Made by a program: the position numbers and the translations under genes. Positions 1 to 15,820 of a stretch of 64,000 nucleotides of DNA are shown one piece after another; the stretch's first letter is position 1, and the number at the start of each line of letters is the position of its first letter. The stretch spans positions 1 to 64,000 of the forward strand of contig NZ_JACHJJ010000025.1 of the NCBI RefSeq assembly GCF_014203605.1, read 5' to 3'. The notes beneath the pieces are model-generated. The model did not search any database and had not been told where the DNA came from. It saw only the letters and a program-made list of their open reading frames with translations. Source of the DNA: Thiemannella venezuelensis (lineage in GTDB: Bacteria; Actinomycetota; Actinomycetes; Streptosporangiales; Streptosporangiaceae).

Positions 1-232
1 AACTCCGGCGGATAGTTGTTCGGCACAGTGGACTCCTTCTTCCGGGAACCAGGGTTCCCCAGAGGTCAGGTGTCCACCAAACCGGGTCAACTCCAGAAAT
101 CACCAACGGTGTGGAGCCCCACCACGACATCACCGTTGATCACCTTGTGGGGGGAGCTTAAGGTCAAGCTTCTCCCCTCAACTCCCTCGAAAACAGGAGA
201 CACAAGCACGACCGCAATGCCATCCTACGGTT
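1..232. other. Upstream region with an inverted repeat
   Basis: No gene is supported here. CAACGGTG at 104-111 is repeated in inverted form as CACCGTTG at 131-138, enclosing a GTGG/CCAC pair, so a hairpin is possible. AACAGGAGAC at 192-201 resembles a ribosome binding site, but it lies about 32 bases before the ATG at 233 and has no start codon of that frame at normal spacing. Confidence 0.3.
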
Positions 233-2269
233 ATGGAAGTGAACCTGCCTCAAGACCTGGGTGAAGTGCAACATGAGGTGCGGGAGGCGACTCGTGCTCT
301 GATTCGGAATCTTCACCTCTCTCTCCCCTCACCGGTGGACGGGAGTCGACAACGAGAGGCATTCGTACCGCTCACGTCTGCTCAATGGAGGACCGTCCTT
401 GAGGATGCTCAATTAATCAAACAGTGGCATCAGACTAAGGAAATAATAAATAGTTTAGCTTCGATCACTTCCACCTCAGGCCGAACAATCGGGAAGCGAC
501 TTCCTGGCCTAATGAGGCTACTCGCCACGGCAGCAAATAGAATTGCATATACCAAATTCGAGATCGCCAAATTTAATCCGCCCGAAAATTTCATGGACCA
601 GAAAAGCCTATCCGAAGATCTTTGCCTATCTGTAATTCGGGTAGTGCGAGAAATGTTTGCATGCGTGAGTCAGGGATGGGAATCCCCTGCATGGCTGTCA
701 GTTAAATCGCACGCCCTCACATCAGACACTTTAGCCAATCAATTGAGAATAATAATTTCCTCGCCTGTTAACGAAAACGAGGACGTATATGAGCGAGTCC
801 TAGGCTTGTCGGGAGACGAGTTCAGAAAGGGTGATCCGGTAGCAGGCTGGGCACGTCTCGGAGCGGCTTGGGCCCGAGATCAAGAGAATCTTGATAAGAG
901 ATTACGTCACCAGATGCGACACCTAATCGTCGACAGCCTGTTGCCCATTACAGTTAAGCTTCGTCAGCATCTAGTCGCTCTTGCGACAGCGAATCGACCG
1001 CTGATCGCACATCATTCCGCAATTCTAGCGCGCGACTTCATAACGGATAAATTAAGAGAAGATCTAGATCACACTCGTATCGTCATTGGACGGCACGTGA
1101 AGACTGTACCCTTGATGTTGTCTGCACATCGAGGAAAGAAAAATTCATGGAAAATGTATATTGAAGCCGCCCATCCAGAAGACCAAGTGCGACCACTTTT
1201 AGACCTGTATAAGATCGTCTCGGAAGGGGATGTGAAGCGGACCGCTATCGTTGTCCTAGAGCTCCTTGGCAGGACAGTCCCCACCACGGTTACGCTGGCC
1301 ACAGTCAAAGACTTACTCAGCGCCGAAGGCAACGCTCCGATGTGCGAGATGCTGGCTGCTTTAATACGTCCAGAGTGGCGCAATGCAATCGCCCATGAGG
1401 ATTTCCTCTGGGATTCAGAAAAGTCGATGGCGATACTTGATGGCAAGCTAGTTAGCCTTGGTGAGCTGCTTCATACATCCATTGCGGCTATGAACATTTG
1501 TGAAGGTTTCGAACACGGAGTTGCCGTGTCCTATGCGCAAAATTCGAAGCTGAACCCTTGGGATGAAACTGTCTCTACTAGTCTTGACGGATTGACCCGC
1601 GTTCTTCAAACGATGGGCAACGTTGGCCAACCCGTACTAGACGGTCGCAAACGAGGACCCTGTATTCGGCTTGATGTACCAGATATCTCCATTGAGTCCA
1701 TTCAAACATTGCTTCGAGCCATTTTAATGGCCGCACAAGTGGACAATTCGATTGACCTGTGGGAAGTTAGACAAGGGCCCGATCGACCAATACTAAATAT
1801 CGACAGATTCGCTATAGAGGCGGCCTTGAAAGTCGCCAGCGGACTCTGGGAAAGTACTGACCCCACACCGTTTGCAAGTCTACCTCTAATTGCGAACGGC
1901 ATGAGGAATGCGGGAGAAGATGACACCGTTTCCGCTGGAACAATTCTGGCTCTAGCCGCAGCACACGTAACCGGGGAAAGGAGTCGACTAACACCTTCTC
2001 TTGCTAGTGCAGATCCCGCAGCGAAAAACGAAATGCTCACTACCGTAAGGCTAATCTCCGACGGAGTCAACGTGGCCTCAACCTTCCTTGAAGGGGATCG
2101 ACCAAAAAGGAAGTTGCTTATGTTTGCCCAAATTCTGTCCGGGGATTGCCAGTGGCATGAGAACGCCCCCCCATCTGCCCTCATATCAGGATTCTCCCCT
2201 GCCGACCGTGCTCTAAATCGGAACATGCCAGCGCACATACCGTGGATTATGCCAAGCGCAGGCCGGTAA
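233..2269 (+). CDS. Large unknown protein with a HEPN-type RNxxxH motif
   Basis: The 678-residue protein has no family I recognise over its full length, no signal peptide and no membrane segment. It looks mostly helical. Residues 383-388 read RNAIAH, followed by acidic residues. This is the Rx4H signature of HEPN domains, which are RNA-cleaving modules in many toxin-antitoxin, abortive-infection and CRISPR effector proteins. Base composition is clearly lower in G+C than in all neighbours. At least eight leucines are encoded by TTA, which is very rare in such genomes and makes translation dependent on the bldA-type tRNA. ATG 233 is the first start in frame; GTG 239 is an alternative. Both lack a well-placed ribosome binding site. 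A defence role is an inference from the motif, composition and position beside a mobile element. Confidence 0.85.
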   Translation: MEVNLPQDLGEVQHEVREATRALIRNLHLSLPSPVDGSRQREAFVPLTSAQWRTVLEDAQLIKQWHQTKEIINSLASITSTSGRTIGKRLPGLMRLLATAANRIAYTKFEIAKFNPPENFMDQKSLSEDLCLSVIRVVREMFACVSQGWESPAWLSVKSHALTSDTLANQLRIIISSPVNENEDVYERVLGLSGDEFRKGDPVAGWARLGAAWARDQENLDKRLRHQMRHLIVDSLLPITVKLRQHLVALATANRPLIAHHSAILARDFITDKLREDLDHTRIVIGRHVKTVPLMLSAHRGKKNSWKMYIEAAHPEDQVRPLLDLYKIVSEGDVKRTAIVVLELLGRTVPTTVTLATVKDLLSAEGNAPMCEMLAALIRPEWRNAIAHEDFLWDSEKSMAILDGKLVSLGELLHTSIAAMNICEGFEHGVAVSYAQNSKLNPWDETVSTSLDGLTRVLQTMGNVGQPVLDGRKRGPCIRLDVPDISIESIQTLLRAILMAAQVDNSIDLWEVRQGPDRPILNIDRFAIEAALKVASGLWESTDPTPFASLPLIANGMRNAGEDDTVSAGTILALAAAHVTGERSRLTPSLASADPAAKNEMLTTVRLISDGVNVASTFLEGDRPKRKLLMFAQILSGDCQWHENAPPSALISGFSPADRALNRNMPAHIPWIMPSAGR

Positions 2270-2660
2270 TCAGGGAGACTGCACGCTGCTGCGCACATAG
2301 CTCGTTCTCTCATCCGCCCCGCCAGCCAGCGTCATTCGATGGCAAGCGGACCCGGAGCACAGGGCCGCCAGGCCCGAGCACCGGAAGCCGCGCGGCAGCC
2401 GATCGTCCCGACCGCACGCGATCAGAACCGAAGCAGGTGATCGCCATGACGTTAAGGATGTTCTCTTCGACTCCTAGGCGCGTAGGCGGCGTGGCCGCGA
2501 CCGGCCGAAGAGCCGCAGCGCGGCCGGCGACCGCCCAACGCGCGGCGGGCCGCGGAGCGGACCGCCCTTGAAGACGTAGAGAAAGTTCTCATCCACGGCT
2601 GCGGCCAGTAAATGATCTTGCTCCTGTTGGCTGCTACCGGCGTGATGGTGGGCTGCCGCG
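2270..2660. other. 391-base gap without a convincing gene
   Basis: This stretch separates the AT-rich gene from the next minus-strand gene, and its composition changes from mixed to GC-rich along its length. An arginine- and alanine-rich frame of 41 codons (2446-2571) starts with ATG behind AGCAGGTGATC, but it has no recognisable features. I saw no tRNA and no copy of the rnpB 3' end. Confidence 0.4.
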
Positions 2661-3353
2661 TCAGAGCCCGAGGTCACAGAGCAGGGCTTTGAGCTCCTCC
2701 GCCTGATGCTCCGATTCGGCATAGAGGGCGGTGAACGCTGACCTTTCGCTCCGGAACACTCTGGCCTCGCCGTCATAGGCGGCGAAGAGCACCCCGTTGT
2801 CCTGCCACCAGTTGTCGGCGAGTCCCTCGACCTCGGGCACGGGCGTCAGCCCTGGGAGCACATGAGTGAGAATCCGTGCTCGCCGGGCCTCCTCGCCCCG
2901 CCAGGTCCCGATCCTCTCCATCGCCTGTGCCGCGTCGGCAAGGGCGCATGCCTCGATCCACCCGGACACCGAGGAGTGGAGGGCTACCCAGTGCTCATAC
3001 AAGATGCCGAATCGCCCCTGAGGGTCGACGCAGAACCAGTGGGCAACCGAGTAGTGATCCATACCGGCGCCGAAGCACCAGCTCGCTTCCTCAAGTTCGC
3101 CAAGGTCCTCTCCGTACATGACGGCCACACCGCCGTCGTAGAGAGGTACGGCCAGTTCGGGGAGGGCAAGCCCGCCCCAGCGGGCCTGGTAGTCCACCAT
3201 TTTGTCGATCAGCGGCCCGCTCCTGCCCCAGCTTCGCCAGTGCTCGCGAAGTTCTTCGGCGGTCAGTACGTCCTCGCGCCGGCCCTTCTCCCGGATGAAC
3301 CTCCGTGCCCGCGGCGACAGGGCCGATGGGTCGTCAAGAACGTGGAGAGTCAC
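2661..3353 (-). CDS. Uncharacterised protein, possibly SMI1/KNR4 (SUKH)-like
   Basis: This is a soluble 230-residue protein without signal peptide or membrane segments. The N-terminal third resembles loosely the SMI1/KNR4 (SUKH) fold: an arginine-rich helix, then a tryptophan- and glycine-rich region with VPLYDGG around residue 90 and an aromatic stretch near 115-135. SUKH proteins often act as immunity proteins against secreted or contact-dependent toxins. The assignment is by eye only. The gene starts 18 bases after the end of the GntR gene on the same strand, so the two are probably cotranscribed and controlled by that regulator. Confidence 0.65.
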   Translation of the reverse strand: MTLHVLDDPSALSPRARRFIREKGRREDVLTAEELREHWRSWGRSGPLIDKMVDYQARWGGLALPELAVPLYDGGVAVMYGEDLGELEEASWCFGAGMDHYSVAHWFCVDPQGRFGILYEHWVALHSSVSGWIEACALADAAQAMERIGTWRGEEARRARILTHVLPGLTPVPEVEGLADNWWQDNGVLFAAYDGEARVFRSERSAFTALYAESEHQAEELKALLCDLGL

Positions 3354-3371
3354 CGGTGCCCCGTCCGGTCA

Positions 3372-3605
3372 TCAGTCTTCGGCAGGGCTGACGATCGATC
3401 CCTTGCCGGGCTTGGTCGTGATCAGCCCTTGCTCGCGCAGGGCCTCCATCGCCTTGCGAACGGTGACCCGGGCAACGTCGAACTCCTCCTGAAGCTTCAC
3501 CTCAGAGATCAGCGTCAGGGGCGGATAGGTGCCGTCCTTGATCCGCCCGGCGACGACGTTCGCTATCTGCTCCCACTTGTAGAGCCTGGGGTCCCATTCG
3601 ATCAC
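3372..3605 (-). CDS. Short GntR-family regulator
   Basis: The protein has 77 residues and is essentially only the winged helix-turn-helix domain of the GntR family. Residues 13-75 include the helix-turn-helix with VARVTVRKAMEALREQGL and the wing with TTKPGKGSIV. The usual ligand-binding domain is absent, as in several plasmid and AICE-borne GntR proteins. It precedes the SUKH-like gene on the same strand. A perfect 12-bp palindrome at 3650-3661 and an AGGTA/TACCT repeat at 3617-3632 lie just upstream and are likely operator sites, which would give autoregulation and control of the divergent gene. Confidence 0.85.
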   Translation of the reverse strand: MIEWDPRLYKWEQIANVVAGRIKDGTYPPLTLISEVKLQEEFDVARVTVRKAMEALREQGLITTKPGKGSIVSPAED

Positions 3606-3649
3606 AAGACGACTCTAGGTATGCCCCTACCTGCGAACATAGAACAGCA

Positions 3650-3661
3650 ATTCCTAGGAAT
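3650..3661. promoter_or_regulatory. Perfect palindrome, likely GntR operator
   Basis: ATTCCTAGGAAT is a perfect 12-bp palindrome in the 78-base gap between the divergent GntR gene and the small plus-strand gene. A second, weaker repeat (AGGTA-6-TACCT, 3617-3632) is next to it. Position suggests binding of the adjacent GntR regulator. Confidence 0.5.
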
Positions 3662-3683
3662 GGTGTAGACAGGATAGGACAGG

Positions 3684-3911
3684 TTGACCTATGGTCAGAT
3701 CATGACCCCGGTGACCTACGACCTCGACGCAGTCCGCGCGGTCTTCCCCGCCTGGTCGGTGTTCCGCAGCGACGCGGGCGCCTTCTACGCCACCCGGCGC
3801 GGCGAGACGCTCACAGACCAGCAGATCGACGCCGGCCTTCAGCGCACGGTCTGCGCCGACGACCTGGCGGACTTCATCCAGCTCCTTCAGGTGCAAGAGG
3901 ACCTGCGGTAG
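3684..3911 (+). CDS. Small hypothetical protein of the AICE
   Basis: This is a 75-residue soluble protein of unknown function. A TTG at 3684 is preceded closely by AGGATAGGACAGG. The first ATG in frame is at 3702 and would give 69 residues beginning MTPVTYDLDAV; either start is possible. The sequence has an aromatic N-terminal part and an acidic helical C-terminus. It lies seven bases before the next small gene and is probably cotranscribed with it. Codon usage is normal for the strain. No function is proposed. Confidence 0.6.
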   Translation: MTYGQIMTPVTYDLDAVRAVFPAWSVFRSDAGAFYATRRGETLTDQQIDAGLQRTVCADDLADFIQLLQVQEDLR

Positions 3912-3917
3912 GCGGCC

Positions 3918-4214
3918 ATGAGCGACCAGGGCCGAACCGCGGAGGGCTACCACACGCTCCACCTGGCGCCGCTGCAAGCCGCCTACGAGCGCATGACCTG
4001 GAGGCCGGCGACTCCCCGCGCGGACAGGGTCCGCATCCGCGAACACACCTGCCCGAACCACACGGTCAGCTATGAGTTCTGCCTCGGCGGGGGCCTGGCG
4101 TTCATCCGCCGGACGTACCGCTCGGACGGCGTGGTCGTGCATGAGAGCGAGTGGCTGCGCATCCGGGACGCCGAGCGCCTGTGGCTGCGGCTCCTCCTCG
4201 GACAGGCCCGATGA
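3918..4214 (+). CDS. Small hypothetical protein of the AICE
   Basis: This 98-residue basic protein starts at ATG 3918, seven bases after the preceding stop. It has two cysteines around residues 45 and 55 and a C-terminal arginine- and leucine-rich helix. No family is recognised. Third-codon-position G+C is high throughout, which supports real coding. Together with the gene before it, it forms a short transcript between the first GntR gene and the XRE regulator. Confidence 0.65.
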   Translation: MSDQGRTAEGYHTLHLAPLQAAYERMTWRPATPRADRVRIREHTCPNHTVSYEFCLGGGLAFIRRTYRSDGVVVHESEWLRIRDAERLWLRLLLGQAR

Positions 4215-4351
4215 CCGCCTTCGGATTCACCCGGAATTGAGAGGAGATAGAAATAGCGGATATGTTCTGACCGATCCGGTAACCGGAATACGCGACACGG
4301 CACGTTGAACATGCCGCGCGCAGTCGCGAGCAACTTCATCATCGTCTATTT

Positions 4352-4375
4352 CCGCAGGTCACGACCGACCTGCGG
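4352..4375. promoter_or_regulatory. 9-bp perfect inverted repeat upstream of XRE gene
   Basis: CCGCAGGTC at 4352-4360 and GACCTGCGG at 4367-4375 are perfect inverted arms with a 6-base loop. The site lies in the 245-base gap before the XRE-TPR regulator. It could be an operator or part of a terminator for the upstream genes. Confidence 0.45.
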
Positions 4376-4389
4376 CTACAGGCGTTTGC

Positions 4390-4414
4390 CCACTGGCAGT
4401 TTTTCTGCCAGTGG
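4390..4414. terminator. 10-bp inverted repeat with T5 loop
   Basis: CCACTGGCAG at 4390-4399 and CTGCCAGTGG at 4405-4414 are perfect arms around TTTTT. The site sits 15 bases after the previous inverted repeat and 46 bases before the regulator start. There is no T tract after the stem, so it may equally be an operator read by the downstream XRE protein. Confidence 0.45.
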
Positions 4415-4459
4415 TGCGGATCACCCGGCTTATCGTCGAGGCAAGCGACGACAGGGAGG

Positions 4460-5683
4460 GTGAACGTGGCTACCGAACAGATGACGACGGGCCAGCGGAT
4501 CGCGCGGGCCCGTCACCGCAAGGGCTGGGATCAGGCCACCCTCGCGGAGAAGATCGGCCGTTCGGTCTCCTGGCTGTCGAAGGTGGAGAACGGCCGGCTG
4601 CCGCTGGACCGGATGAGCGTCGTCGGCCAGCTCGCCGAAGCGCTCGGGGTGGAGATGGCCGAGCTCACCGGTCAGCCGTACCGGCACGAGACCAACGACC
4701 TCGACTCCGGGCACTCGGCGGTCCCCGGTCTGCGCCTTGCGCTCCAGCAGGCGACCATGCCGGGCGGGGCCGCGCTCCTGGGCAACCGGGAACCGCGGGG
4801 CCTGGCCGAGCTGGAGGCGAACGTGCGGCTGGCCGAACAGCTCCGCCAGGACGCCAAGTTCACCGCCCTCGGCGAGGTGCTGCCGAGCATCATCACGGAC
4901 CTGCTGCTCATCACCTCGGGCGGGACGGCCGACCGGGACCGGGCGGAGGCGCTGATGCTGCGGGCCTGCCACATGGCGCGCGTCTCCTCCAACCTCCTCG
5001 GTCACCACGACCTCGGGTGGACGGCGGTACAGCGGGAGCTCGTCGCCGCCCAGCAGGTCGGCGCTCCCGAACTCGTCGCCGCCGCGTCCTGGGACCTGTG
5101 CGGCGTCTGGCTCCACGAGGCGGCGCTTGATCCGGCGAAGAACGCGGCGCTGTCGGCGCTCGATCAGCTTGAGCCGTACGTGGGGACGGGTGACGACACG
5201 ATCCGGGCGCTGTGGGGAGCGCTGCACCTGCGGGCGGCCGTCGCCTACTCGCGGCTGTGGGACCAGACCGAGGCGGAAAGCCATCTGGCCGAGGCGCGGC
5301 AGATCGCCGAGCGCCTGCCGGCGAACGGCAACGCCTTCCAGACCCAGTTCAACCGCGTCAACACGACGATTCACGCGGTCGAGGTCAGCATGGAGCTGGG
5401 GCGCCCCCGGGATGTGATCACGCGGGCGGAGCAGGTGGAGATCGCGCAGATCGCCTCGTCGGAGAGGCAGGCGCACTACTGGACCTGCACCGCGGCGGGC
5501 TACCACATGAACCGCAAGGACAACGAGGCTGTGGAAGCGCTGCTCCGCGCGGATCGCATCGCACCTCAGCACGTCCGTAACCGCCCGCTGGTCCGCAACA
5601 TCGTGCGTGACCTGCGCGACAGCGGCAAGCATCGTCGTCAGCGTGAGGTCGCCGGCCTCGCCCAGGCGATGCGGCTGCCCTGA
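4460..5683 (+). CDS. XRE-family regulator with C-terminal TPR-like region
   Basis: This is a 407-residue transcription factor. Residues 8-68 form a lambda-repressor type helix-turn-helix (QATLAEKIGRSVSWLSKVENG). The remaining 330 residues are helical repeats of TPR type, as in actinomycete XRE regulators that sense peptides or other small ligands. The GTG at 4460 is preceded by AGGGAGGG at good spacing. The gene stands alone between the small AICE genes and the second GntR gene, behind two tandem inverted repeats. A role in controlling the element is likely from position; the signal is unknown. Confidence 0.88.
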   Translation: MNVATEQMTTGQRIARARHRKGWDQATLAEKIGRSVSWLSKVENGRLPLDRMSVVGQLAEALGVEMAELTGQPYRHETNDLDSGHSAVPGLRLALQQATMPGGAALLGNREPRGLAELEANVRLAEQLRQDAKFTALGEVLPSIITDLLLITSGGTADRDRAEALMLRACHMARVSSNLLGHHDLGWTAVQRELVAAQQVGAPELVAAASWDLCGVWLHEAALDPAKNAALSALDQLEPYVGTGDDTIRALWGALHLRAAVAYSRLWDQTEAESHLAEARQIAERLPANGNAFQTQFNRVNTTIHAVEVSMELGRPRDVITRAEQVEIAQIASSERQAHYWTCTAAGYHMNRKDNEAVEALLRADRIAPQHVRNRPLVRNIVRDLRDSGKHRRQREVAGLAQAMRLP

Positions 5684-5770
5684 CCAAAGCTCATCGGTGA
5701 GCCTGTCCGCGCTCTGGCTCTCCCCATCCATGAAGGTTCCACAGGTCGTGCTCGCGGCCTGCCTAAGCGA

Positions 5771-5935
5771 ATGAATGGGGCACTACTCGTGGGTCTCAAC
5801 GAGATCGAACGGCAGATCCTGCTACGCGAACTGGCGGAGATCGCGACCGAGCTCGCCGAGCTTCAACGGCGGGCGCTCGTGATCACTGCTCGGGTCGATC
5901 TGGACGAGTCCGGGCGTCTAGCTCGTCCAGCCTGA
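5771..5935 (+). CDS. Small helical hypothetical protein
   Basis: This frame of 54 codons begins at ATG 5771, with GTG 5789 as an alternative start. The predicted product is one amphipathic, leucine- and glutamate-rich helix (RQILLRELAEIATELAELQ) suited to coiled-coil pairing. Its last 53 bases overlap the end of the convergent GntR gene. The codon pattern agrees with translation, but the ribosome binding site is weak, so the gene is only probable. Confidence 0.4.
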   Translation: MNGALLVGLNEIERQILLRELAEIATELAELQRRALVITARVDLDESGRLARPA

Positions 5936-6281
5936 AGCTCAGCTTCTTGACGTGCTCGCGGATCTCCTGGAGCTGCTGGGAGATGAGAAGGAACTCCTCG
6001 CTGTGCTCCTCGTCCGAACCTCCGGTGACGGCGGGGCGCGGGGCCTCCTCGTCGGGCGTGCGGAGAACGAAGCTGCCGGACCCCTGGCGGGTCTCGATCA
6101 GTCCTTCGTCGCGTAGGACGGCGAGCGCGTTGCCGATGGTCATCATCGCGACGCCGTACTTGTCGGCGAGTTCCCGGGCCACGGGGAGCTGTTCCCCGAC
6201 CGCGTACCTGCCGGCGGCTATCTCACGGCGGATGTCGTCGGCGATACGCAGGTAAGGCCGTCGCCGGTCGGTGGTGCCCAT
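5883..6281 (-). CDS. GntR-family regulator, KorSA-like
   Basis: The 132-residue protein has an N-terminal winged helix domain (residues 8-75, with LADKYGVAMMTIGNALAVL and TRQGSGSFV). It ends in a charged helical tail at about 93-125 that probably forms a coiled coil for dimerisation. A GntR-type repressor in this position, divergent from pra and the tra genes, matches KorSA of the pSAM2 element, which represses pra and so keeps the element integrated. The gap before pra carries palindromes at 6300-6311 and 6370-6381 that suit this protein. Autoregulation is inferred. Confidence 0.87.
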   Translation of the reverse strand: MGTTDRRRPYLRIADDIRREIAAGRYAVGEQLPVARELADKYGVAMMTIGNALAVLRDEGLIETRQGSGSFVLRTPDEEAPRPAVTGGSDEEHSEEFLLISQQLQEIREHVKKLSFRLDELDARTRPDRPEQ

Positions 6282-6299
6282 GCCTCCACAGTAGCCGTT

Positions 6300-6392
6300 C
6301 TAGGCATCTAGGTCTCTGGGCAACCCGTAACAAAACATGGAGGCAACCTAGCTGTGTCGGTTTACATTTCTAGATATCTAGATATCTTGATA
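6300..6392. promoter_or_regulatory. Divergent promoter with CTAG-type operators
   Basis: CTAGGCATCTAG at 6300-6311 is an imperfect palindrome and CTAGATATCTAG at 6370-6381 a perfect one. The latter is followed at once by a second partial copy (AGATATCTTGATAG). The sites flank the region between the GntR gene and the Pra-like gene and are the best candidates for operator sequences that keep the element silent. Confidence 0.6.
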
Positions 6393-6425
6393 GGCAGAAC
6401 AATCATTCTCTGGAGGTCCACCCTC

Positions 6426-6764
6426 ATGCGCAACATCCCCATCCCCGTCGACGTCTCCCGGCTCCAGTTCATCTGCGTCAAGGCACCCTGCCCCCGCGTC
6501 ATCAACAGGGACACGGGCGAGATCAAGACCGACAAGGCCAGCGGCCAGACGGTCTACGAGGTCCTGTGCTCGGTGGAGGACGCCTTCGGCAAGATCGAGC
6601 TGGTCAAGGTCAGCGTCGTCGGAGAGCCCCCGGTCAGCCCCGGTGATCAGGTCAACCCGGTCGGCCTGGTGGGGTACGTCTGGGAGCTGTCCGGCCGCTG
6701 GGGCATCGCCTACCGGGCGTCGGCCATGCTGCCCGCCGCCGCGGCGGAGGTGCGCGGTGTCTGA
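6426..6764 (+). CDS. pra: Pra-like activator (SCO3933 family)
   Basis: The 112-residue protein belongs to the SCO3933/Pra family of actinomycete plasmids and AICEs. Recognisable features are the N-terminal MRNIPIPVDVSRLQF, the segment RDTGEIKTDKASGQTVYEV, and the C-terminal GLVGYVWELSGRWGIAYRAS. In pSAM2, Pra activates rep, xis and int, switching the element to replication and excision. The ATG at 6426 is chosen because CTGGAGG precedes it at correct spacing; a longer frame from 6354 would run through the operator. The last eight bases overlap the translocase gene, so the two are translationally coupled. Confidence 0.85.
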   Translation: MRNIPIPVDVSRLQFICVKAPCPRVINRDTGEIKTDKASGQTVYEVLCSVEDAFGKIELVKVSVVGEPPVSPGDQVNPVGLVGYVWELSGRWGIAYRASAMLPAAAAEVRGV

Positions 6765-8085
6765 TCGCTTCCTCCTGGCGCTCCTCGATGTCCTCGTGGT
6801 TCTGGTCGTCACCGTGGCCGGCCTGTGGGCTTGGCGGCGCTGGCACTACCGGTCGTTCTGGCTGGTGGTCGGCTACCCGCTCATGGCGATCAGCGTCCGC
6901 GCCACCTGGCGGAAGGTCGCCCTCGGCTGCGGCCTGACCAAGAAGCGGCAGCGTTTCTGGTTCACCACCGTCCCCGGCCTGGTCTCCTCGACCGGCGTCG
7001 TGAAGGTCAAGCGGCGTTTCCAGCGAATCGCGGTCGACACCAAGCCGTGGATGTGGCTGCCCCTGCCCACGCGGTACGGCTGGCGCGTCACGCTCCACAC
7101 CCTCGAAGGGCAGACCCCCGACGACTACCGCCAAGCGGCCGAACAGCTCGCGCACTCCTGGCGGGTGCACGCCGTACGGGTCTCCTCGCCCCGGCCCGGC
7201 CGGGTCGTGCTGGCCGCGACCATGCGTGATCCGCTGGTGCGGGTGGATGAGATCCCGCCCTCGTCGGAGCTGCTGAAGGTCACCGTGGGACGGCTGGAGA
7301 CCGGCAAACCGTGGGAGATCGACTTCCGCACCGTGCCGCACTGGCTGAACGCCGGGGCGACGCAATCCGGGAAGTCGAACCTCGCCAACGCGCTCATCGT
7401 CGGCCTGGCTCCGCAGCCGGTCGCCCTGGTCGGCTTCGACCTCAAGGGCGGCGTGGAGTTCACCCCCTACGCACCCCGGCTGTCGGCGCTGGCCACGTCC
7501 CGTGCCGAGTGCGTCGGCCTGCTCGATGACCTCGTGAGCCTGATGGCCGACCGGATGACCGCATGCCGTACGGCCGGCGCCCGCAACATCTGGCAGCTCC
7601 CGCCGGACCTGCGGCCGGTGCCGGTCGTGGTCCTGGTCGACGAGCTCGCCGAGTTGTACCTGATGGCCGACAAGAGCGAGAAAGACGAGATCGCACGTAC
7701 CTCGACGGCGCTGCTGCGGGTGGCGCAGCTCGGGCGGGCCTTCGGCATCTACCTGTTCTGCTGCGGCCAGCGCATCGGCTCCGACCTCGGCCCCGGCGTC
7801 ACGGCGCTGCGCGCCCAGTGCTCGGGCCGCATCTGCCACCGGGTCAACGATCCGGAGACCGCGACCATGACCCTCGGCGACCTCGACCCGGCCGCGCTGG
7901 TCTCCGCCCGCGCCATCCCCGCCGAGACATCCGGGGTCGCGATCGTGGCCGGCCAGGACGGCCAGTGGTACCGCGCCCGCTCCTTCTACGTCTCCGAGCA
8001 CGCGGCCGAACACGCCGCCCGCATGTACGCCGATCTCACCCCTCCTTGGAGGAGATCACCAGCGGCGCTCAGCCGATCGAGATGA
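6757..8085 (+). CDS. FtsK/SpoIIIE-type DNA translocase (Tra), 3' frameshift
   Basis: This is the conjugation motor of the AICE, expected to move double-stranded DNA between mycelial cells as a membrane hexamer. The GTG start at 6757 overlaps pra. Residues 5-22 form a membrane segment. Walker A is GATQSGKS at 200-207 (lysine 206) and Walker B is VVVLVDE with Asp295-Glu296. After about residue 427 the present frame gives an odd arginine-rich tail and ends at 8085. From 8040 the next frame has proper codon usage for 36 more residues (SLEEITSGAQPIEMTDDDL and on) and stops at 8150, just before the next gene. A lost C in the CCCC run at 8039-8042 would explain this. A programmed slip is less likely but possible. 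Confidence 0.85.
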   Translation: MSDRFLLALLDVLVVLVVTVAGLWAWRRWHYRSFWLVVGYPLMAISVRATWRKVALGCGLTKKRQRFWFTTVPGLVSSTGVVKVKRRFQRIAVDTKPWMWLPLPTRYGWRVTLHTLEGQTPDDYRQAAEQLAHSWRVHAVRVSSPRPGRVVLAATMRDPLVRVDEIPPSSELLKVTVGRLETGKPWEIDFRTVPHWLNAGATQSGKSNLANALIVGLAPQPVALVGFDLKGGVEFTPYAPRLSALATSRAECVGLLDDLVSLMADRMTACRTAGARNIWQLPPDLRPVPVVVLVDELAELYLMADKSEKDEIARTSTALLRVAQLGRAFGIYLFCCGQRIGSDLGPGVTALRAQCSGRICHRVNDPETATMTLGDLDPAALVSARAIPAETSGVAIVAGQDGQWYRARSFYVSEHAAEHAARMYADLTPPWRRSPAALSRSR

Positions 8086-8150
8086 CCGATGACGACCTTG
8101 CCCAGTTCCTCACTCCCGCCGCCATCGTCCCGGAACCTCGGAAGGGCTGA
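8040..8150 (+). pseudogene. Displaced C-terminal codons of the translocase
   Basis: In the frame beginning at 8040 the sequence encodes an acidic, proline-ended tail that would complete the FtsK-like protein. Third positions are almost all G or C here, while in the annotated frame they are not. The stop at 8148-8150 is followed by the ribosome binding region and ATG of the DUF2637 gene. Confidence 0.6.
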
Positions 8151-8156
8151 GAGAGC

Positions 8157-8807
8157 ATGCGACGCCTCGCCTCCTGGCTGCTGGACTCCGGTTCCGTCCT
8201 CGTCCTGGCGCTCATCGCCGGGGCCGGCTCCTTCTCCCACATCCGCCAGACCGCCGTAGAGCACGGCCAGACCGGCTGGATGGCCTGGGCCGTGGCCGTA
8301 TGCGTCGATCTCACCTGTGTCATGGCCGCCCGCGAACGCCAGCGCGACAAGAAGACCGGACGCGAGCGGACCGGCCCGCTCTCCTGGCCGACCTTCATCC
8401 TCGTCGCCGGGATCGTGCTGTCCCTGGCCGCCAACCTCCACCAGGCCGAACCCTCGGTGTGGGGCTGGCTGACCGCCGGAACCCCCGCGGTGGCGTTCCT
8501 GGTGGCCGTCTCCATGCTGGAGCGGCGGGCCGCCGCTCCCAGTCCTCACCCGTCGCCGGAACCGTCACCGATGACCGCTGCGGCACCTTCGGTGCCGGCC
8601 ATCGCCCCGGCCGCCGACGACCACCAGGCCGACGCTCCGGGGCCGGCCCCGGCCCTCCTCGACTACGCCCGGCGGATCGTCGACGAGCACCACGCCAAGC
8701 ACGGAAAGCCGATCACCTGCGACCTCCTGCGCGCCCGCCTGGGCGTGTCCGACCAACTCGCCTCCGACCTGCTCCGCCACCTGCGGACCGCGCCGGACGC
8801 CCTGTGA
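8157..8807 (+). CDS. DUF2637 membrane protein, likely spread (Spd) protein
   Basis: The 216-residue protein has four predicted membrane segments (about residues 10-28, 41-59, 79-99 and 107-124), matching the DUF2637 family. These proteins lie beside tra genes in actinomycete plasmids and AICEs and are thought to aid spread of the element through the mycelium. A proline- and alanine-rich linker (130-160) leads to a C-terminal domain (about 163-213) that resembles a small winged helix (KPITCDLLRARLGVSDQLASDL). This suggests DNA binding on the cytoplasmic side. The gene starts six bases after the stop of the displaced translocase frame. Confidence 0.8.
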   Translation: MRRLASWLLDSGSVLVLALIAGAGSFSHIRQTAVEHGQTGWMAWAVAVCVDLTCVMAARERQRDKKTGRERTGPLSWPTFILVAGIVLSLAANLHQAEPSVWGWLTAGTPAVAFLVAVSMLERRAAAPSPHPSPEPSPMTAAAPSVPAIAPAADDHQADAPGPAPALLDYARRIVDEHHAKHGKPITCDLLRARLGVSDQLASDLLRHLRTAPDAL

Positions 8808-8821
8808 AAGGAAACGCACCC

Positions 8822-9178
8822 ATGCCCACCGACCCGACACGCCGCGCGGCGTTCATCACCGGACTGCGGGACCTGGCCGACTTCATCGAGGCCAACCCCG
8901 GCATCCCCGTCCCTCGCCAGTCGACGGCGATCACCTACTTTCCCGAGCAGGCGACGGACGCCGAAATGTGCGCGGAGGTCGACCGGATCGCCGGCCTGTG
9001 CGGCGCCCGGATCGACCCGGCACCCCTGCCGTACGGCCACTACATGATCACTCTGCCCTTCGGGCCGCTCCGCTACGAGATCGCCGCGATCCTGGCCGAC
9101 GCCCGCGCCCGGTACGGCGCCCTCAGCAGCTACCACGGCTGCGTCACCCCTGATTCCGACCCGGCACACGCCGCCTGA
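8822..9178 (+). CDS. Hypothetical AICE protein
   Basis: The ATG at 8822 follows GAAAGGA at good spacing and gives 118 residues. The sequence is soluble and mixed alpha/beta, with a helical N-terminus (LRDLADFIEANPGIPVP) and a middle part of beta character (PLPYGHYMITLPFGP). Proteins of this type are common in actinomycete mobile elements and prophages, where they are unassigned. It is in line with the spread gene upstream and the two tiny genes downstream. No function is proposed. Confidence 0.75.
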   Translation: MPTDPTRRAAFITGLRDLADFIEANPGIPVPRQSTAITYFPEQATDAEMCAEVDRIAGLCGARIDPAPLPYGHYMITLPFGPLRYEIAAILADARARYGALSSYHGCVTPDSDPAHAA

Positions 9179-9194
9179 CCGAAGGACAACCACC

Positions 9195-9365
9195 ATGCGC
9201 ATCCGCCTCGACGGCACCCACGCCGAGATCACCTACAGCATGTTCCGCCTCCGCGAGATCTTCACCGTGACCTCGGTCTCGCGGGCCTACCCCGACCGCA
9301 CCCGCCCCCGGAACTACCGGGTCTTCGTCAACATCATCCCGCGCGAGATCAGAGGCGCCCGATGA
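9195..9365 (+). CDS. Small hypothetical AICE protein
   Basis: A 56-residue basic protein starts at ATG 9195 behind GAAGGAC. It has a beta-rich N-terminus (MRIRLDGTHAEITYS) and an arginine-rich C-terminus. Its stop overlaps the start of the next small gene (ATGA at 9362-9365), so the two are coupled. Codon usage is normal. The function is unknown. Confidence 0.65.
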   Translation: MRIRLDGTHAEITYSMFRLREIFTVTSVSRAYPDRTRPRNYRVFVNIIPREIRGAR

Positions 9366-9484
9366 CCGAACTCCTCCCGGTGCTCCGCTGCCGCTGCGGC
9401 ACCTGCAACGGGACCGGCGTCACCGGAGACGGCGAGACCTGCCCCGACTGCCACGGGACCGGAATCGACAACCACGGCGCATAG
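9362..9484 (+). CDS. Tiny zinc-ribbon protein with DnaJ-like CxxCxGxG repeats
   Basis: This 40-residue protein contains CGTCNGTG (residues 12-19) and CPDCHGTG (28-35). These are two repeats of the CxxCxGxG type that binds zinc in the cysteine-rich region of DnaJ. One zinc ion held by four cysteines is expected. It starts inside the stop of the preceding gene. Such mini zinc ribbons are frequent in actinomycete elements next to rep genes. A role in protein or nucleic-acid binding is only a guess. Confidence 0.7.
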   Translation: MTELLPVLRCRCGTCNGTGVTGDGETCPDCHGTGIDNHGA

Positions 9485-9492
9485 CCGTAAGC

Positions 9493-9541
9493 GCCCCCCG
9501 CCTGGCCGCACAACCGCCAAGTTCCGCGCCAGGCCGGGGGC
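9493..9541 (+). terminator. Long GC hairpin before rep
   Basis: A 14-base arm at 9493-9506 (GCCCCCCGCCTGGC) pairs with 9528-9541 with one mismatch, across a 21-base loop. It follows the zinc-ribbon gene and precedes the replication gene by 40 bases. It may terminate the spd transcript or take part in rep control or origin function. Confidence 0.5.
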
Positions 9542-9581
9542 CATCCCTCACAGATCACCTCTGGATAGGACGGAACCCATC

Positions 9582-10949
9582 TTGCCCCACCCGCACGCCG
9601 TAGCCGGGATGGTCTCCCGGCTCAACGATCCCCACTACGCCCGCTGGGCCTCCCAGGTCCGCGCCACCGGCGGCTGCCGACAGCCGATCCACCTGCGCGG
9701 CAAGGTCCAGCACATCGACCGCGCGACCGGTGAACTCCTCCACTCCTACAGCACCCGCACCGAACCCGGCGGCGTGCTCCGGGTCCCGTGCAAGACCCGC
9801 CGGGCCTCGCGCTGCCCGGCCTGCGCCGAGGTCTACCGCGCCGACACCTACCAGTTGATCCGCGCGGGCCTGGCCGGCGGCAAGGGCGTGCCCGAAAGCG
9901 TGACCGCTCACCCGTGTCTGTTCGTCACCCTGACCACCCCGTCCTTCGGCGTCGTCCACACCCGCCGGGAGAAGAACGGCACGGTCCTGCCCTGCCACGC
10001 CCGCCGCGACGCGGCCACCTGCCCGCATGGGCGGGTCATGTCCTGCACCGCCCGCCACGGCACCGAAGAGACCTCCCTCGGCGAACCGCTCTGCCCCGAC
10101 TGCTACGACTACGCGGGCTCGGTCCTGTTCAACGCCCTGTCGCCGGAGCTGTGGCGACGCTTCACCCTGGCCCTGCGCCGCCGCCTGGCCAAGACCGCGG
10201 GCCTGACCGTTCGGGAGCTGCGCGAGCAGGTGACGGTGTCCTTCGCCAAGGTCGCCGAGTACCAGCGGCGCGGCGTCGTGCACTTCCACGCCGTCATCCG
10301 CCTCGACGGCCCCGACGGACCCACCGCCTCGCCTCCGGCCTGGGCGACGGCCGACGCCCTGGCGGACGCCGTCCGGCACGCTGCCTCGGCCGTCTCCGTG
10401 CCGGTCCCGGCCGCCGAGGGTGAACCGGCGCGGGTACTGCGCTGGGGAGCTCAGCTCGACGTCCGCCCGATCACGATGGGCGGGGAACTGACCGATCAGG
10501 CGGTGGCCGGCTACATCGCCAAGTACGCCACCAAGGCCGCCGAGTGCGTCGGCACCCTCGACCGGCGCATCAGCCCCCTTGACGACCTGGACGCGCTGCC
10601 CATCCGCGAGCATGCCCGGCGGCTCATCGCCGAGTGCTTCCGCCTGGGCGCCCTCGACGGCCTGGCCGAGCTACGGCTGACCCAGTGGGCGCACATGCTG
10701 GGCTTCCGCGGCCACTTCTCCACCAAGTCCCGCCGCTACTCCACCACCTTCGGGCAGATCCGCGAGGAACGCGCCGAGCACATGCGGGCCGAAGCGGTCA
10801 CCACCGGACGGCTCCCCCTCTTCGAGGAGGACACCGTCCTCGTGATCGCCGAATGGGAGTACGCCGGACAGGGCTACTCCCTCGGTGACGCGCTCCTCGC
10901 CGCAGCGTTGACCGGCGTCCCCCTGGCCGATCCCGGGGGCTCGCGATGA
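9582..10949 (+). CDS. RepSA-type rolling-circle replication initiator
   Basis: The protein (455 residues) is the HUH-type replication initiator of pSAM2-like elements, which nicks the double-strand origin to start rolling-circle replication after excision. The HUH motif is at residues 234-236 (VVHFHAVI). The catalytic tyrosine region is YIAKYATK, with Tyr311, Lys314 and Tyr315. Cysteine pairs near residue 83 (CPAC) and at about 168 (CPDC) suggest zinc binding. A TTG at 9582 behind AGGACGG is the best start; ATG 9609 is an alternative. The stop overlaps the excisionase start (ATGA). Confidence 0.88.
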   Translation: MPHPHAVAGMVSRLNDPHYARWASQVRATGGCRQPIHLRGKVQHIDRATGELLHSYSTRTEPGGVLRVPCKTRRASRCPACAEVYRADTYQLIRAGLAGGKGVPESVTAHPCLFVTLTTPSFGVVHTRREKNGTVLPCHARRDAATCPHGRVMSCTARHGTEETSLGEPLCPDCYDYAGSVLFNALSPELWRRFTLALRRRLAKTAGLTVRELREQVTVSFAKVAEYQRRGVVHFHAVIRLDGPDGPTASPPAWATADALADAVRHAASAVSVPVPAAEGEPARVLRWGAQLDVRPITMGGELTDQAVAGYIAKYATKAAECVGTLDRRISPLDDLDALPIREHARRLIAECFRLGALDGLAELRLTQWAHMLGFRGHFSTKSRRYSTTFGQIREERAEHMRAEAVTTGRLPLFEEDTVLVIAEWEYAGQGYSLGDALLAAALTGVPLADPGGSR

Positions 10950-11122
10950 AGACGACGGACCGGCTCTGGACGGTGGAGGAGGTCGCCGAGTACCTCGGCG
11001 TGCCGGTCGGGACCCTCTACCAGTGGCGCTGCAAGCGGATCGGCCCACCCGGCCGGCGGATCGGCAAGCACCTGCGCTACCTCCCCGAGGACGTGTACGT
11101 CTGGGTCCGGGAGCAGACATGA
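10946..11122 (+). CDS. xis: Excisionase (Xis), helix-turn-helix
   Basis: The 58-residue protein is one MerR-like winged helix: WTVEEVAEYLGVPVGTLYQW is the helix-turn-helix and RRIGKHLRYLPEDVYVW the wing and last helix. Small proteins of this type next to AICE integrases direct excision together with the integrase. The gene overlaps rep at its start and the integrase at its end (ATGA, 11119-11122), so rep-xis-int form one coupled operon, presumably switched on by the Pra-like protein. Confidence 0.88.
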   Translation: MKTTDRLWTVEEVAEYLGVPVGTLYQWRCKRIGPPGRRIGKHLRYLPEDVYVWVREQT

Positions 11123-12315
11123 CCGTCTACGACCGGTGGCACAAGTCCCGCCCCGAGCCCGGAGAGGCGAAGTGCTCCGAGCACAAGCGCGTGCCGACCG
11201 CCAAGCACGGCCAGGGAGCACGCTGGCAGGTCCGCTACCGCGACGAGAAGGGCCAGCAGCTCAAGCGCAACTTCGAGCGGAAGGCCGACGCCGACCGCTT
11301 CGACGTGACACGCCGTGCCGACGAGCCGCGCGGCGAGTGGATCGACCCCAAGCTCGGGCAGACCAGGTTCCAGGTGTACGCGCAGACGTGGATGGCGTCG
11401 CGGCTGCACAAGCCCGGGACCGCGATGACCTACGCCGGGCACCTGAAGAACCACATCAACCCGGTCTTCGGCCTGGTCCCGCTGATCTCCATACGGCCCA
11501 CCGCCGTGCAGCGGTGGGTGAAGGACCTCCACGTGAAGGGCCTGGCGCCGCGTACGGTCGAGACCGTCTATGTGATCTTCTCCAGCGTCATGCGCGGTGC
11601 CGTGCGGGACGGCATGATCCGCCGTTCTCCCTGTGTCGACATCCGCTTGCCGGAGCCGGACAAGACCACGATCCGGCTCCTCTCCCCCGCCGAGGTGATC
11701 GCGCTCTACCGGGCCATGCGGCCCGAGTACGCGCCGCTGGTCCTCCTGGGTGCCGCGGCCGGTCTCCGGCAGGGTGAGGCCCTCGGCCTGGCCGTCGACC
11801 GGATCGACTTCGCCGAGGGCATGCTGACGGTGGACCAGCAGGTCGTGGTGATCGACCGGCGTCCGGTGCTGGCCCCGCCGAAGACGCGGGCCTCCGTCCG
11901 CGACGTCCCGGTGCCGGCCGTTCTCGCCGACGCGCTGGCCGAGCACATCGACCGGTGCGAACCCGAGGACGTGCTGTTCCGGACGACGCGCGGCAATCTG
12001 ATCCGGCGCGACTACTTCAACGCCGACGTCCTGCGGCCCGCGATCCTCGCGGCCGGGGTGCCGGCGGACATGACGTTCCACGATCTGCGGCACACCTTCG
12101 CCAGTACGGCGCTCGCCGAGGGCGTGCCGATCTCCGAGGTGTCCCGGTGGCTCGGGCACGAGTCCATCACGACGACCGTGGACCTGTACGGGCACCTGGT
12201 CCCGGAGGCCTCCGAGCGGGCGCGGACGGCGCTGGACAACGCCTTCGCCTCGGCGCTCGGGTCCGCCGGATGTGCCCCCGATGTGCCCTCTCAGGGCTTC
12301 GATCTTCCCGGGTGA
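11119..12315 (+). CDS. int: Tyrosine site-specific integrase
   Basis: The start at ATG 11119 overlaps xis and gives 398 residues. An arm-binding, AP2-like N-terminus (residues 30-80) is followed by a SAM-like core-binding domain (about 85-175) and the catalytic domain. All catalytic residues are present: Arg217 (GLRQGEAL), Lys255, His321-x-x-Arg324 (HDLRH), His347 (LGHES) and Tyr357 (DLYGH). The gene ends 32 bases before the 3' end of rnpB on the other strand, as is usual for integrases whose attachment site lies in an RNA gene. Confidence 0.95.
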   Translation: MTVYDRWHKSRPEPGEAKCSEHKRVPTAKHGQGARWQVRYRDEKGQQLKRNFERKADADRFDVTRRADEPRGEWIDPKLGQTRFQVYAQTWMASRLHKPGTAMTYAGHLKNHINPVFGLVPLISIRPTAVQRWVKDLHVKGLAPRTVETVYVIFSSVMRGAVRDGMIRRSPCVDIRLPEPDKTTIRLLSPAEVIALYRAMRPEYAPLVLLGAAAGLRQGEALGLAVDRIDFAEGMLTVDQQVVVIDRRPVLAPPKTRASVRDVPVPAVLADALAEHIDRCEPEDVLFRTTRGNLIRRDYFNADVLRPAILAAGVPADMTFHDLRHTFASTALAEGVPISEVSRWLGHESITTTVDLYGHLVPEASERARTALDNAFASALGSAGCAPDVPSQGFDLPG

Positions 12316-12339
12316 GGGTTCCGCCGCAGGTCAGGGGCG

Positions 12340-12385
12340 GGTGGGGCGGACGAGTCGGCCTGTAGGCCGGGTTTTGTCCTTCGCT
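12340..12385. other. Candidate att site at the rnpB 3' end
   Basis: The integrase gene ends at 12315 and the mature rnpB 3' end lies near 12348. By analogy with tRNA- and tmRNA-targeting elements, the core att sequence should overlap the last bases of rnpB, around GGCCTGTAGGCC at 12357-12368. The exact core cannot be set, because no second copy was found to the left within the window. Confidence 0.5.
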
Positions 12386-12742
12386 CGCGCGAAGGGGCGA
12401 CCATCCATCTAGGACCGCCGTTGCCGGCGGCCTCAAGCGGTCTACCCGCGCGGCTCGGGCGGGCCGCCCTCAGGCGCCGCGCGCGGGACGCCCCGGAGGG
12501 CGTCCCTTCTTGACCTTGCTCCGGGTGGGGTTTACCTAGCCGCCCACGTCACCGTGGGCGCTGGTGGTCTCTTACACCACCCTTTCACCCTTACCCCCCT
12601 CGAGGAGGGGCGGTCTGCTCTCTGTGGCACTGTCCCGCGGGTCACCCCGGGTCGGCGTTACCGACCACCCTGCCCTGTGGAGCCCGGACCTTCCTCGGCG
12701 GGCCTTCGTGAAGACCCGACGCGGCCGCCCGGCCGGCTCGTC
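12348..12742 (-). ncRNA. rnpB: RNase P RNA (bacterial class A)
   Basis: The minus strand carries all the conserved parts of actinomycete RNase P RNA. Near the 5' end, CCGGGCTCCACAGGGCAG leads into the GACAGTGCCACAGAGA region. Then come GGGTGAAAGGGTGGTGTAAG and GGCTAGGTAAACCCCACCCG, followed by AGAGGATGG-type CCTAGATGGATGG. The 3' part ends with ACAAAACCCGGCCTACAG followed by GCCGACTCG. This RNA is the catalytic subunit that removes tRNA 5' leaders. Both ends are estimated to a few bases. The 3' end appears intact even though an integrated element adjoins it. Confidence 0.97.
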
Positions 12743-12818: not shown

Positions 12819-14120
12819 TCAGCGCAGGTGCGAGGTGTCGTTGAACGCCTTCACCACGGCGGGCCCGTCGGCGTAGTACTCGATCACCGAGACGCAGGCC
12901 AGGTCGAGGTGCATGCGGTACAGCGCGGCGGGCGGAGCCAGCAGCGCGAACCGGAGCAGCGTCTTGATCGGCGTGACGTGGGAGACGGCGAGGACCGTCC
13001 TGCCCTCGTATCGTTCGGCGATCCTGTCCCCGGCCGCCCGCACCCGCCGGGCCACCGTCTCGAAGCTCTCCCCGCCCGGCGGCGCGACGGATGGGTCGGC
13101 GAGCCAGGCCGCGAGCTCGTCCGGCCAGCGCCGCTGGATCTCGGTGAAGGTGCAGCCCTCCCAGTCGCCGAAGTCGGCCTCCCGCAGGTCCTCTTCGACG
13201 GTCACCTCCAGGCCGGTCCTGGCGGCGACGGCCTCGGCGGTGGTGCGGGCCCTCCGGAGAGGGGAGCTGACGATCACCTGCACGCCGTACGGCTCCCGCG
13301 AGAGCCTGTCGGCCGCGGCCTCGGCCTGGGCGACGCCGTCGGGGGTGAGCTCGGGGTCGCCGAGCCCGGAGAAGCGGCGCTCGACGGAGAGCAGGGTCTC
13401 GCCGTGGCGGAGCAGGACCAGGGTGGTGGCGGCGGTCGCGGGGGGCCGCCAGCCGGTGCCCCTGGCCGCGGCCGCGGGGGCGTCCGATGCCGCTTCGGAG
13501 ACGTCCGTGGAGTCGAAGAGGGACTCCTGCGCCATTCCCTCCCCCGCGGTCCGGGACCGGGCGGTCACCGCCTGCGTGCCGGGGCCCGCGTCCGCGGCGC
13601 CGGAGACGGCCGCCCCTCCTCCGGAGCCCGGGAGCCCGTCTCCGGAGGCCGGCGGGCCTGCGGCGGGACGGCCGGGGACGGCGGAGGCCGCCGAGTGCCA
13701 GGGGAGGCCCTTCGCGGCGGCGTCCATGGCCTCGTTGGCCAGCCGGTCGGCCTCCCGGTTCTTCTCCCGGGGGATCCAGCGCCAGGTGACCCGGAGCCTG
13801 CGGGCCAGCGCCCCGGCCTCCATCGCGAGCGGGCGCAGCCCCTCGTTCTTGATCTTCCAGCGGCCGGCCATCTGCTCGATGACCAGTTTGGAGTCCATCC
13901 GGACCTCGGCCGCGGCCCCGTCACCGGCCAGTTCCAGCAGGGCCCGCAGGCCGGCGACCAGCCCGCGGTACTCGGCGACGTTGTTGGTGGCGGTGCCGAT
14001 CGCCGCGGCGTCCTCGACGAGGATCTGGCCGTCGGCGGCGTCCCTGACCACCGCGCCGTACCCGGCGGGCCCGGGATTGCCCCGGGATCCGCCGTCGGCC
14101 TCGACGACGTAGGAGGTCAC
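12819..14120 (-). CDS. Bifunctional RNase H / acid phosphatase
   Basis: This protein matches the mycobacterial Rv2228c type: an RNase HI-like domain (residues 1-140) followed by a phosphoglycerate-mutase/CobC-like phosphatase domain. RNase H acidic residues are visible in VVEADGGSRGNPG, NNVAEYRGL, MDSKLVIEQM and NREADRLANE. The phosphatase has the LRHGET signature and the later HVTPIKT histidine. A long Pro/Ala-rich linker of about 80 residues joins the domains. The GTG at 14120 is chosen because it overlaps the upstream stop (GTGA); a start at 14159 is possible but unlikely. The product should act on RNA-DNA hybrids and small phosphate esters. Confidence 0.9.
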   Translation of the reverse strand: MTSYVVEADGGSRGNPGPAGYGAVVRDAADGQILVEDAAAIGTATNNVAEYRGLVAGLRALLELAGDGAAAEVRMDSKLVIEQMAGRWKIKNEGLRPLAMEAGALARRLRVTWRWIPREKNREADRLANEAMDAAAKGLPWHSAASAVPGRPAAGPPASGDGLPGSGGGAAVSGAADAGPGTQAVTARSRTAGEGMAQESLFDSTDVSEAASDAPAAAARGTGWRPPATAATTLVLLRHGETLLSVERRFSGLGDPELTPDGVAQAEAAADRLSREPYGVQVIVSSPLRRARTTAEAVAARTGLEVTVEEDLREADFGDWEGCTFTEIQRRWPDELAAWLADPSVAPPGGESFETVARRVRAAGDRIAERYEGRTVLAVSHVTPIKTLLRFALLAPPAALYRMHLDLACVSVIEYYADGPAVVKAFNDTSHLR

Positions 14121-14857
14121 AGGCCCGACTCGGGCGTGCGGACCAGGATCCGGCGGCACTCCTCGCAGCGGACCACCTCGTCGTGCGCGGCGGCCTTGAT
14201 CCGGTTGATGTCGGCGATCGACAGGCTCGTCCGGCAGCCGAGGCAGCGGCCGCCCTGGAGCATCGCGGCGCCCACGCCCGACTGCTCGCGGAGCTTCTCG
14301 TACAGCGCCAGCAGGTCGGCGGGGATGTCGGCCACGACGGCCGCGCGACCGCCCTTGACCTCCGCGCTCTCCTTGTCGATCTCGGCGAAGGCGGCGTCCC
14401 TGCGGTCCTCGGCGGCGCCGCGGGCGGCGGCGAGCTCGTCGCGCTCCGCGGCCAGCTTCGCCACCTGCGCGTCGGCGCTCTCCCTGCGCTCCATGATCTC
14501 CAGAACGACCTCCTCCAGGTCGCCCTGGCGGCGGGCCAGCGAGACGATCTCCGACTGGAGGCTGGCCAGGTCCTTCGGCGAGGAGACCTGGCCGGAGTCG
14601 AGGCGCTTCTGGTCCCGCTCGGCGCGGATGCGGACCGAGTCGACGTCGCTCTCGGCCTTGGCCTGCTCCCTGGCGAGGTCTCCCGCCTCGGTCTCGGCGG
14701 CGATCACCTGGGTCGCCAGCCGGGCCACGCGGGCGGCGAGCTCGTCGATCTCGGCCAGCTCGGGCAGGGTCCGGCGGCGGTGGGCCAGCCGGTCGATCAC
14801 GGAGTCGAGTTCGGCCAGGTCGAGCAGGCGCTTCTGGGCTGCCGGGGCTGCTTTCAC
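14117..14857 (-). CDS. Coiled-coil protein with C-terminal C4 zinc ribbon
   Basis: The 246-residue protein matches the Rv2229c type. A long coiled coil (about residues 5-175, rich in Glu, Arg, Ala and Leu) is followed by a zinc ribbon with CLGCRTSL (near 205) and CEEC (near 231). Such proteins are conserved next to the RNase H/phosphatase gene in actinobacteria; a role in RNA or DNA handling is suspected but not proven. GTG 14857 follows GGAGATAACTG, which lies only a few bases inside the native flank of the IscB insertion. The original upstream linkage to the Nif3 gene is therefore broken. Confidence 0.88.
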   Translation of the reverse strand: MKAAPAAQKRLLDLAELDSVIDRLAHRRRTLPELAEIDELAARVARLATQVIAAETEAGDLAREQAKAESDVDSVRIRAERDQKRLDSGQVSSPKDLASLQSEIVSLARRQGDLEEVVLEIMERRESADAQVAKLAAERDELAAARGAAEDRRDAAFAEIDKESAEVKGGRAAVVADIPADLLALYEKLREQSGVGAAMLQGGRCLGCRTSLSIADINRIKAAAHDEVVRCEECRRILVRTPESGL

Positions 14858-15560: not shown

Positions 15561-15820
15561 GGCCGTGGCCGTCTCGGGGTGACGCCCGTGCGCGCGGGTG
15601 CGGCGCGTACGGGTCTCCCCTCGCCCATGTCCGATACCCGGTACCCGACCGTTTCCGGTCAGATCTGCACGGGCCGTTCCGTCCCGACCCGGGGTGTCTG
15701 CTCCCGTGCATTCCAGAGCGGCGGGCTGAGGAAGCACCCGCCGGTGGGTCCGCTGTCGTGCATCGGACGTAGCCATCAATGGCACCTCCATTCGCTGATG
15801 GCTGGGGCTGGTCAATGCGG

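Follow-up and report, generated by a model that had tools for sequence, protein, structure and literature searches.

A window of 64,000 nt from Thiemannella venezuelensis (the whole stretch of DNA analysed here) carries, as far as its sequence allows one to judge, what is almost certainly an AICE integrated site-specifically at the 3' end of rnpB, the gene for RNase P RNA, with restoration of the piece of the gene that was replaced. A first-pass annotation of this DNA had proposed rnpB as the integration site, and the proposal is upheld by a second copy of the core on another contig (C11), by the presence of AICE genes and arm-type repeats, and by the location of the integrase lineage at rnpB. 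Genomes, contigs and loci are designated below by G, C and L numbers, respectively, where they have to be told apart.

Borders and gene content of the element

A whole-genome search with the rnpB region revealed that the 3' end of this gene (window 12345-12373) recurs exactly, over 29/29 bp, at C11:6883-6911. This is the sole further exact copy found in the genome, where about 6e-11 second exact 29-mers would be expected by chance in 8.2 Mb. Such a copy to the left of the window had been suggested as a check by the first-pass annotation and was encountered there in direct orientation. Window position 1 is the first base of contig C25, and the two att cores form a direct repeat once the starts of C11 and C25 face each other. 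Over their first ~97 bp, C25 matches the end of C37 and C11 matches the end of C45; the contigs break at these points because one IS-like repeat, present twice, collapsed at both. The second att copy and the shared IS ends therefore suggest an element reading C11:6883->1, IS, window 1->12344, with a length of at least 19.2 kb. That the C11 and C25 halves belong to one element is indicated by synteny and by the shared IS ends. The range initially assigned to the element, 2661-12742, thus corresponds to its right part only, its start lying beyond, on C11; it also included rnpB, which is host DNA, the element ending at window 12344/12373.

Within the core is an imperfect inverted repeat (CGGCC-TGTA-GGCCG), and the core itself was found again at element borders in relatives. 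Arm-type repeats such as those listed in Table 1 have been described for pSAM2 and pACPL (PMC3364876). Repeat pairs of the GGGCACAT type lie behind 12 of the 59 distinct rnpB 3' ends, a non-random sample of loci, versus 0/965 background stretches. To the left of attL, 3.8 kb of the T. venezuelensis genome are absent from G045 and Planobispora takensis and may represent an older remnant. A homologue of the gene next to attL on this side (C11:6916-7788) lies outside the left core in Planomonospora sp. ID82291 (G016) but inside the element in P. parontospora; given the latter placement this gene may be old cargo, and it was dropped as proof of a chromosomal flank.

Table 1. Features of the window in and around the predicted AICE
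Feature	Position	Strand	Evidence or remark
Predicted right part of the integrated AICE (left part C11:1-6883)	1-12344		Second att copy on C11; match to contiguous G016 element
End of IS-like repeat at the C25 break; element continues on C11 (C11:6883->1)	1-97		Ends shared with C37
Probable cargo, 678-aa ORF beside IS end	233-2269	plus	ORF list; inside element by position only
Cargo, 230-aa ORF, family unassigned	2661-3353	minus	ORF list; Pfam scan
HTH (HTH_31) regulator	4460-5683	plus	Pfam 1.2e-13
GntR-family regulator	5883-6281	minus	Pfam GntR 1.7e-18
Conserved ORF upstream of tra	6354-6764	plus	Kept in G016, G034, G059, L056, L059
tra, FtsK/SpoIIIE-type DNA translocase, true start uncertain	6643-8085	plus	Pfam 1.3e-24
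DUF2637 membrane protein	8157-8807	plus	Pfam 8.1e-12
rep, RepSA replication initiator	9582-10949	plus	Pfam RepSA 4.8e-168; NCBIfam RepSA 2.9e-166, below curated cut-off
xis, 58-aa excisionase-type HTH	10946-11122	plus	HTH_17 2.7e-12; TIGR01764 excise 2.6e-6 (27.7 bits, slightly under the curated cut-off of 28.8)
int, tyrosine integrase, rnpB-targeting clade	11119-12315	plus	PF00589 1.9e-20; catalytic motifs; tree
Arm-type-like repeat GATGTGCCCCCGATGTGCCCTC	12269-12290	plus	Also C11:6779-6758, same sense relative to element
Arm-type-like site TTCCGCCGCAGGTC	12319-12332	plus	Inverted copy C11:6851-6864, inside other end
attR core, 3' end of rnpB	12345-12373	plus	Identical to attL core C11:6883-6911, 29/29 bp
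rnpB, RNase P RNA class A, intact, integration target	12347-12740	minus	RF00010, 276.5 bits, full model 1-367/367
Bifunctional RNase H/acid phosphatase, upstream of rnpB	12819-14159	minus	NCBIfam PRK07238 5.2e-155
Overlapping HEARO RNA match and RRXRR-domain ORF	14919-15896 and 15609-15881	both minus	83.6 bits; 1e-15

The complete rep-xis-int module noticed at the outset near the 3' end of rnpB on the opposite strand was confirmed by RepSA, HTH and PF00589 matches. The rep/xis and xis/int overlaps measure 4 bp each, the integrase (Int) carries the R...HxxR...H...Y catalytic motifs, and the int stop is located 31 bp short of the rnpB 3' end and 29 bp from the core. The features by which AICEs are recognized are present: int, rep and an FtsK/SpoIIIE-type tra gene within one 9-60 kb region, int beside an att site, direct att repeats at both ends and an excisionase gene adjoining int. 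This gene content (RepSA, Xis, tyrosine Int and FtsK-type Tra) is that predicted for a pSAM2-like AICE. The position of the GntR regulator suggests a KorSA-like role, and the DUF2637 protein is possibly Spd-like. No Pfam or PADLOC match was obtained for the 678-aa ORF. On C11 (L004), in the left half of the element, a cargo gene at 2997-4253 (minus strand) displays weak similarity to PtuB-type HNH nucleases (3.4e-8, residues 279-395).

The rnpB 3' end is intact, as it had appeared at first sight, with RF00010 matched over the full model; full-length matches show that the gene is also restored in L039, L059, L108-L111 and L135. The RNase H/acid phosphatase gene is a conserved chromosomal neighbour that adjoins rnpB in relatives as well. 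In the RNase P RNA of the window, the fifth pair of helix P1 is a C.A mismatch, common to 36/67 compared rnpB genes. Its explanation by element-borne P1 strands is unsupported, the mismatch being present in 16/36 rnpB genes that have an element signature versus 20/31 of those lacking one (Fisher p=0.14). To the right of the element, a HEARO (OMEGA-type) RNA match barely over the cut-off (83.6 vs 83 bits) overlaps an ORF encoding an RRXRR (IscB-like N-terminal) domain; this ORF looks truncated and the locus is therefore probably a degenerate IscB locus.

Related elements and distribution of the rnpB site

Both ends of a closely related element are found on one contig in Planomonospora sp. ID82291, bounded by the same cores. 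It shares with the T. venezuelensis element 694 bp at 88% identity just inside the left core on C11, and it is 96% identical over window 3365-12376, up to the right core. P. parontospora JCM 3093 (L059, G114) harbours the same element, with an Int 98.7% identical; 17.9 kb separate its cores, of which the right one is that of rnpB. In G016 a second element, whose Int is only 36% identical, comes after the first and ends at rnpB. Removal of the 17,034 bp that separate the two cores of this second element yields the P. parontospora junction (811/829 identical), whereas without this removal the right half of G016 matches P. parontospora at chance level (103/400). These two genomes are a clean empty/occupied pair, exact to the rnpB core, for the neighbour element and not for that of the window itself. 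The first-pass annotation had named an unchanged int-rnpB junction in an empty-site strain as evidence against integration at rnpB; no such junction was found, and the sole clean pair, which concerns the neighbour element with its different Int, changes exactly at the core. Among the relatives compared, including G045, G001, Planobispora takensis and Herbidospora, none combined a bare rnpB with the left flank of the window's element. Instead of a bare site, G045, G001 and Planobispora takensis have remnants, an int fragment or int-tail arms. Herbidospora was rejected as a clean empty-site comparison: its flanks are syntenic, but about 2-2.7 kb of extra sequence is present.

In the Streptosporangiaceae, the core (<=2 mismatches) was detected in 176 of 251 genomes, 46 of these 176 carrying two to seven copies, and a reversed-core control gave 0 matches in the same 251 genomes. 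Besides G016, tandem cores occur in G135, where L161 has four of them in 10.2 kb at rnpB, and, in another family, in G076, with three (L111). The rnpB 3' end is a recurrent hot spot in this family. Its earlier description as a rarely noted target understates how often the site is used in Streptosporangiaceae. In the open-access literature we found no paper naming rnpB as attB (mention outside it is possible). Core copies far from rnpB and flanked by element-type sequence were observed in G183, G164, G135 and G059 (L154-L157, L159, L160, L162-L165); displaced att ends, or sites of secondary integration, may account for them. Two small actinomycete genomes (1.4-1.7 Mb) also contain 28 bp identical to the rnpB 3' end, at L115:3724-3751 and L116:2610-2637, where the context is conserved but includes neither Int nor rnpB.

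Across 297 genomes sampled from the whole class, all five Int matches outside Streptosporangiaceae (E<1e-70, 39-42% identity, four families) adjoin either rnpB itself or a copy of its 3' end. Many of the weaker Int relatives across the phylum are located at tRNA genes. In the Int tree, the clade of the window comprises 10 members, all at rnpB (support 100/100). The rnpB label requires 5 changes (at least 3 forced) versus 15.7 with shuffled labels; in this tree the target was called by adjacency, 17/51 rows lack a known target and clustering is inflated by near-copies. One early origin of rnpB targeting followed by losses and a few separate switches both fit these data.

A scan of viral contigs recovered one exact core. 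The contig that carries it measures 35 kb and has genes for terminase, portal, protease, major head and tape-measure proteins. An Int gene on this contig, whose product is 34% identical to that of the window, stops 36 bp short of the core, and a temperate phage therefore appears to share the rnpB site; no rnpB was present within the 6-kb stretch scanned. No relatives of the window Int were retrieved from phage and plasmid records at E<1e-30. A faecal 'phage' record, MT836823, was rejected as attP: besides the core, it contains an rnpB gene of its own.

Proposed mechanism and alternative readings

The integration would follow the standard tyrosine recombinase reaction at a conserved RNA-gene 3' end, with rnpB in the role usually held by a tRNA gene. 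The element would have been inserted by a crossover within the core, separating rnpB from the neighbour that formerly lay downstream of it. In some Herbidospora elements one spacer base differs between the cores, being G in the left one and A in the one linked to rnpB; should A represent the host form, the crossover might tentatively be placed on the rnpB-distal side of this base. The displaced copy would persist as attL, and attR would rebuild a complete rnpB, its last bases being element-derived, because the attP core carries the last 27 bases of the gene. Int would bind the core, with its inverted repeat, as well as the arm-type repeats found within both ends, and Xis would drive excision, generating a circle with the predicted junction ...GGGCGGGTGG-core-CTAATTCCGCC... 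RepSA would replicate this circle, and the FtsK-like Tra protein would transfer it in double-stranded form.

Could the element instead have integrated elsewhere, for instance in a tRNA gene, its int end lying beside rnpB by chance or rearrangement? The 3' ends of tRNA genes are the target of most AICEs with tyrosine integrases (PMC3218068), and the more distant Ints of our survey are at tRNAs. However, an RNA gene scan found no tRNA or tmRNA gene in the window, nor, accordingly, an att repeat in a tRNA gene, which the first annotation would have counted against rnpB. An exact direct repeat of the rnpB 3' end occurs at the other end of the element and the same arrangement exists in many genera, making this reading very improbable. 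It is just as hard to credit that the repeated rnpB 3' ends are captured fragments, serving as regulatory RNA or decoy, or leftovers of duplication rather than att sites. The dispersed cores of G183, G164, G135 and G059, far from rnpB, and those of G068 and G095, with neither Int nor rnpB nearby, would be consistent with such an origin, but cores mark the borders of elements, usually no more than about 100 bp from an int end and flanked by arm repeats, and the difference between G016 and P. parontospora is an insertion exact to the core.

Decay of the integrated copy, left immobile and split by an IS insertion, is unlikely but deserves serious consideration, with an IS-like repeat inside the element and remnants common at the rnpB site. 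Against it, the rep, xis, int and tra ORFs are open and 92-99% identical to the copies of two other genomes, and both att cores are intact. This last alternative bears on the activity of the element and not on its integration site, for which rnpB is the preferred reading.

Significance and comparison with known systems

Because rnpB is an essential gene with a highly conserved 3' end, it would provide a landing site in practically every actinomycete. The preference of integrases for RNA 3' ends becomes testable, as a conserved sequence with an inverted repeat can be set against tRNA shape as such. The rnpB site also points to islands that tRNA-based finders would miss, and is a candidate site for integration vectors in rare actinomycetes for which few genetic tools exist.

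The AICE, the RNA-gene attB and the accretion of elements at one site are already known kinds (PMC3218068, PMC9513070). The RNA genes serving as attB in the surveys consulted are those of tRNA and tmRNA, and a 2025 TIGER/Islander announcement lists tRNA/tmRNA, protein-coding and intergenic site classes, leaving rnpB unnamed (PMC12424338); rnpB as an attB target is likely, although not certainly, new. The element resembles AICEs of the pSAM2 type (pSAM2, pACPL) in its int-xis-rep cassette, RepSA, FtsK-like Tra and GntR regulator, as well as in its direct att repeats, arm-type repeats and use of an RNA-gene 3' end; it differs from them in its target, rnpB here versus tRNA genes for pACPL and the pSAM2 type (PMC3364876; PMC3218068). 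Like the tRNA/tmRNA islands recognized by Islander/TIGER, it brings with it an RNA-gene 3' end by which that gene is restored, whereas its core corresponds to the rnpB 3' end and not to part of a tRNA or tmRNA gene. Stacked elements with different integrases and decayed copies at one RNA-gene site recall the accretion of AICEs at a Streptomyces tRNA-Arg gene (PMC9513070), with the difference that the site described here is rnpB and is common to several families.
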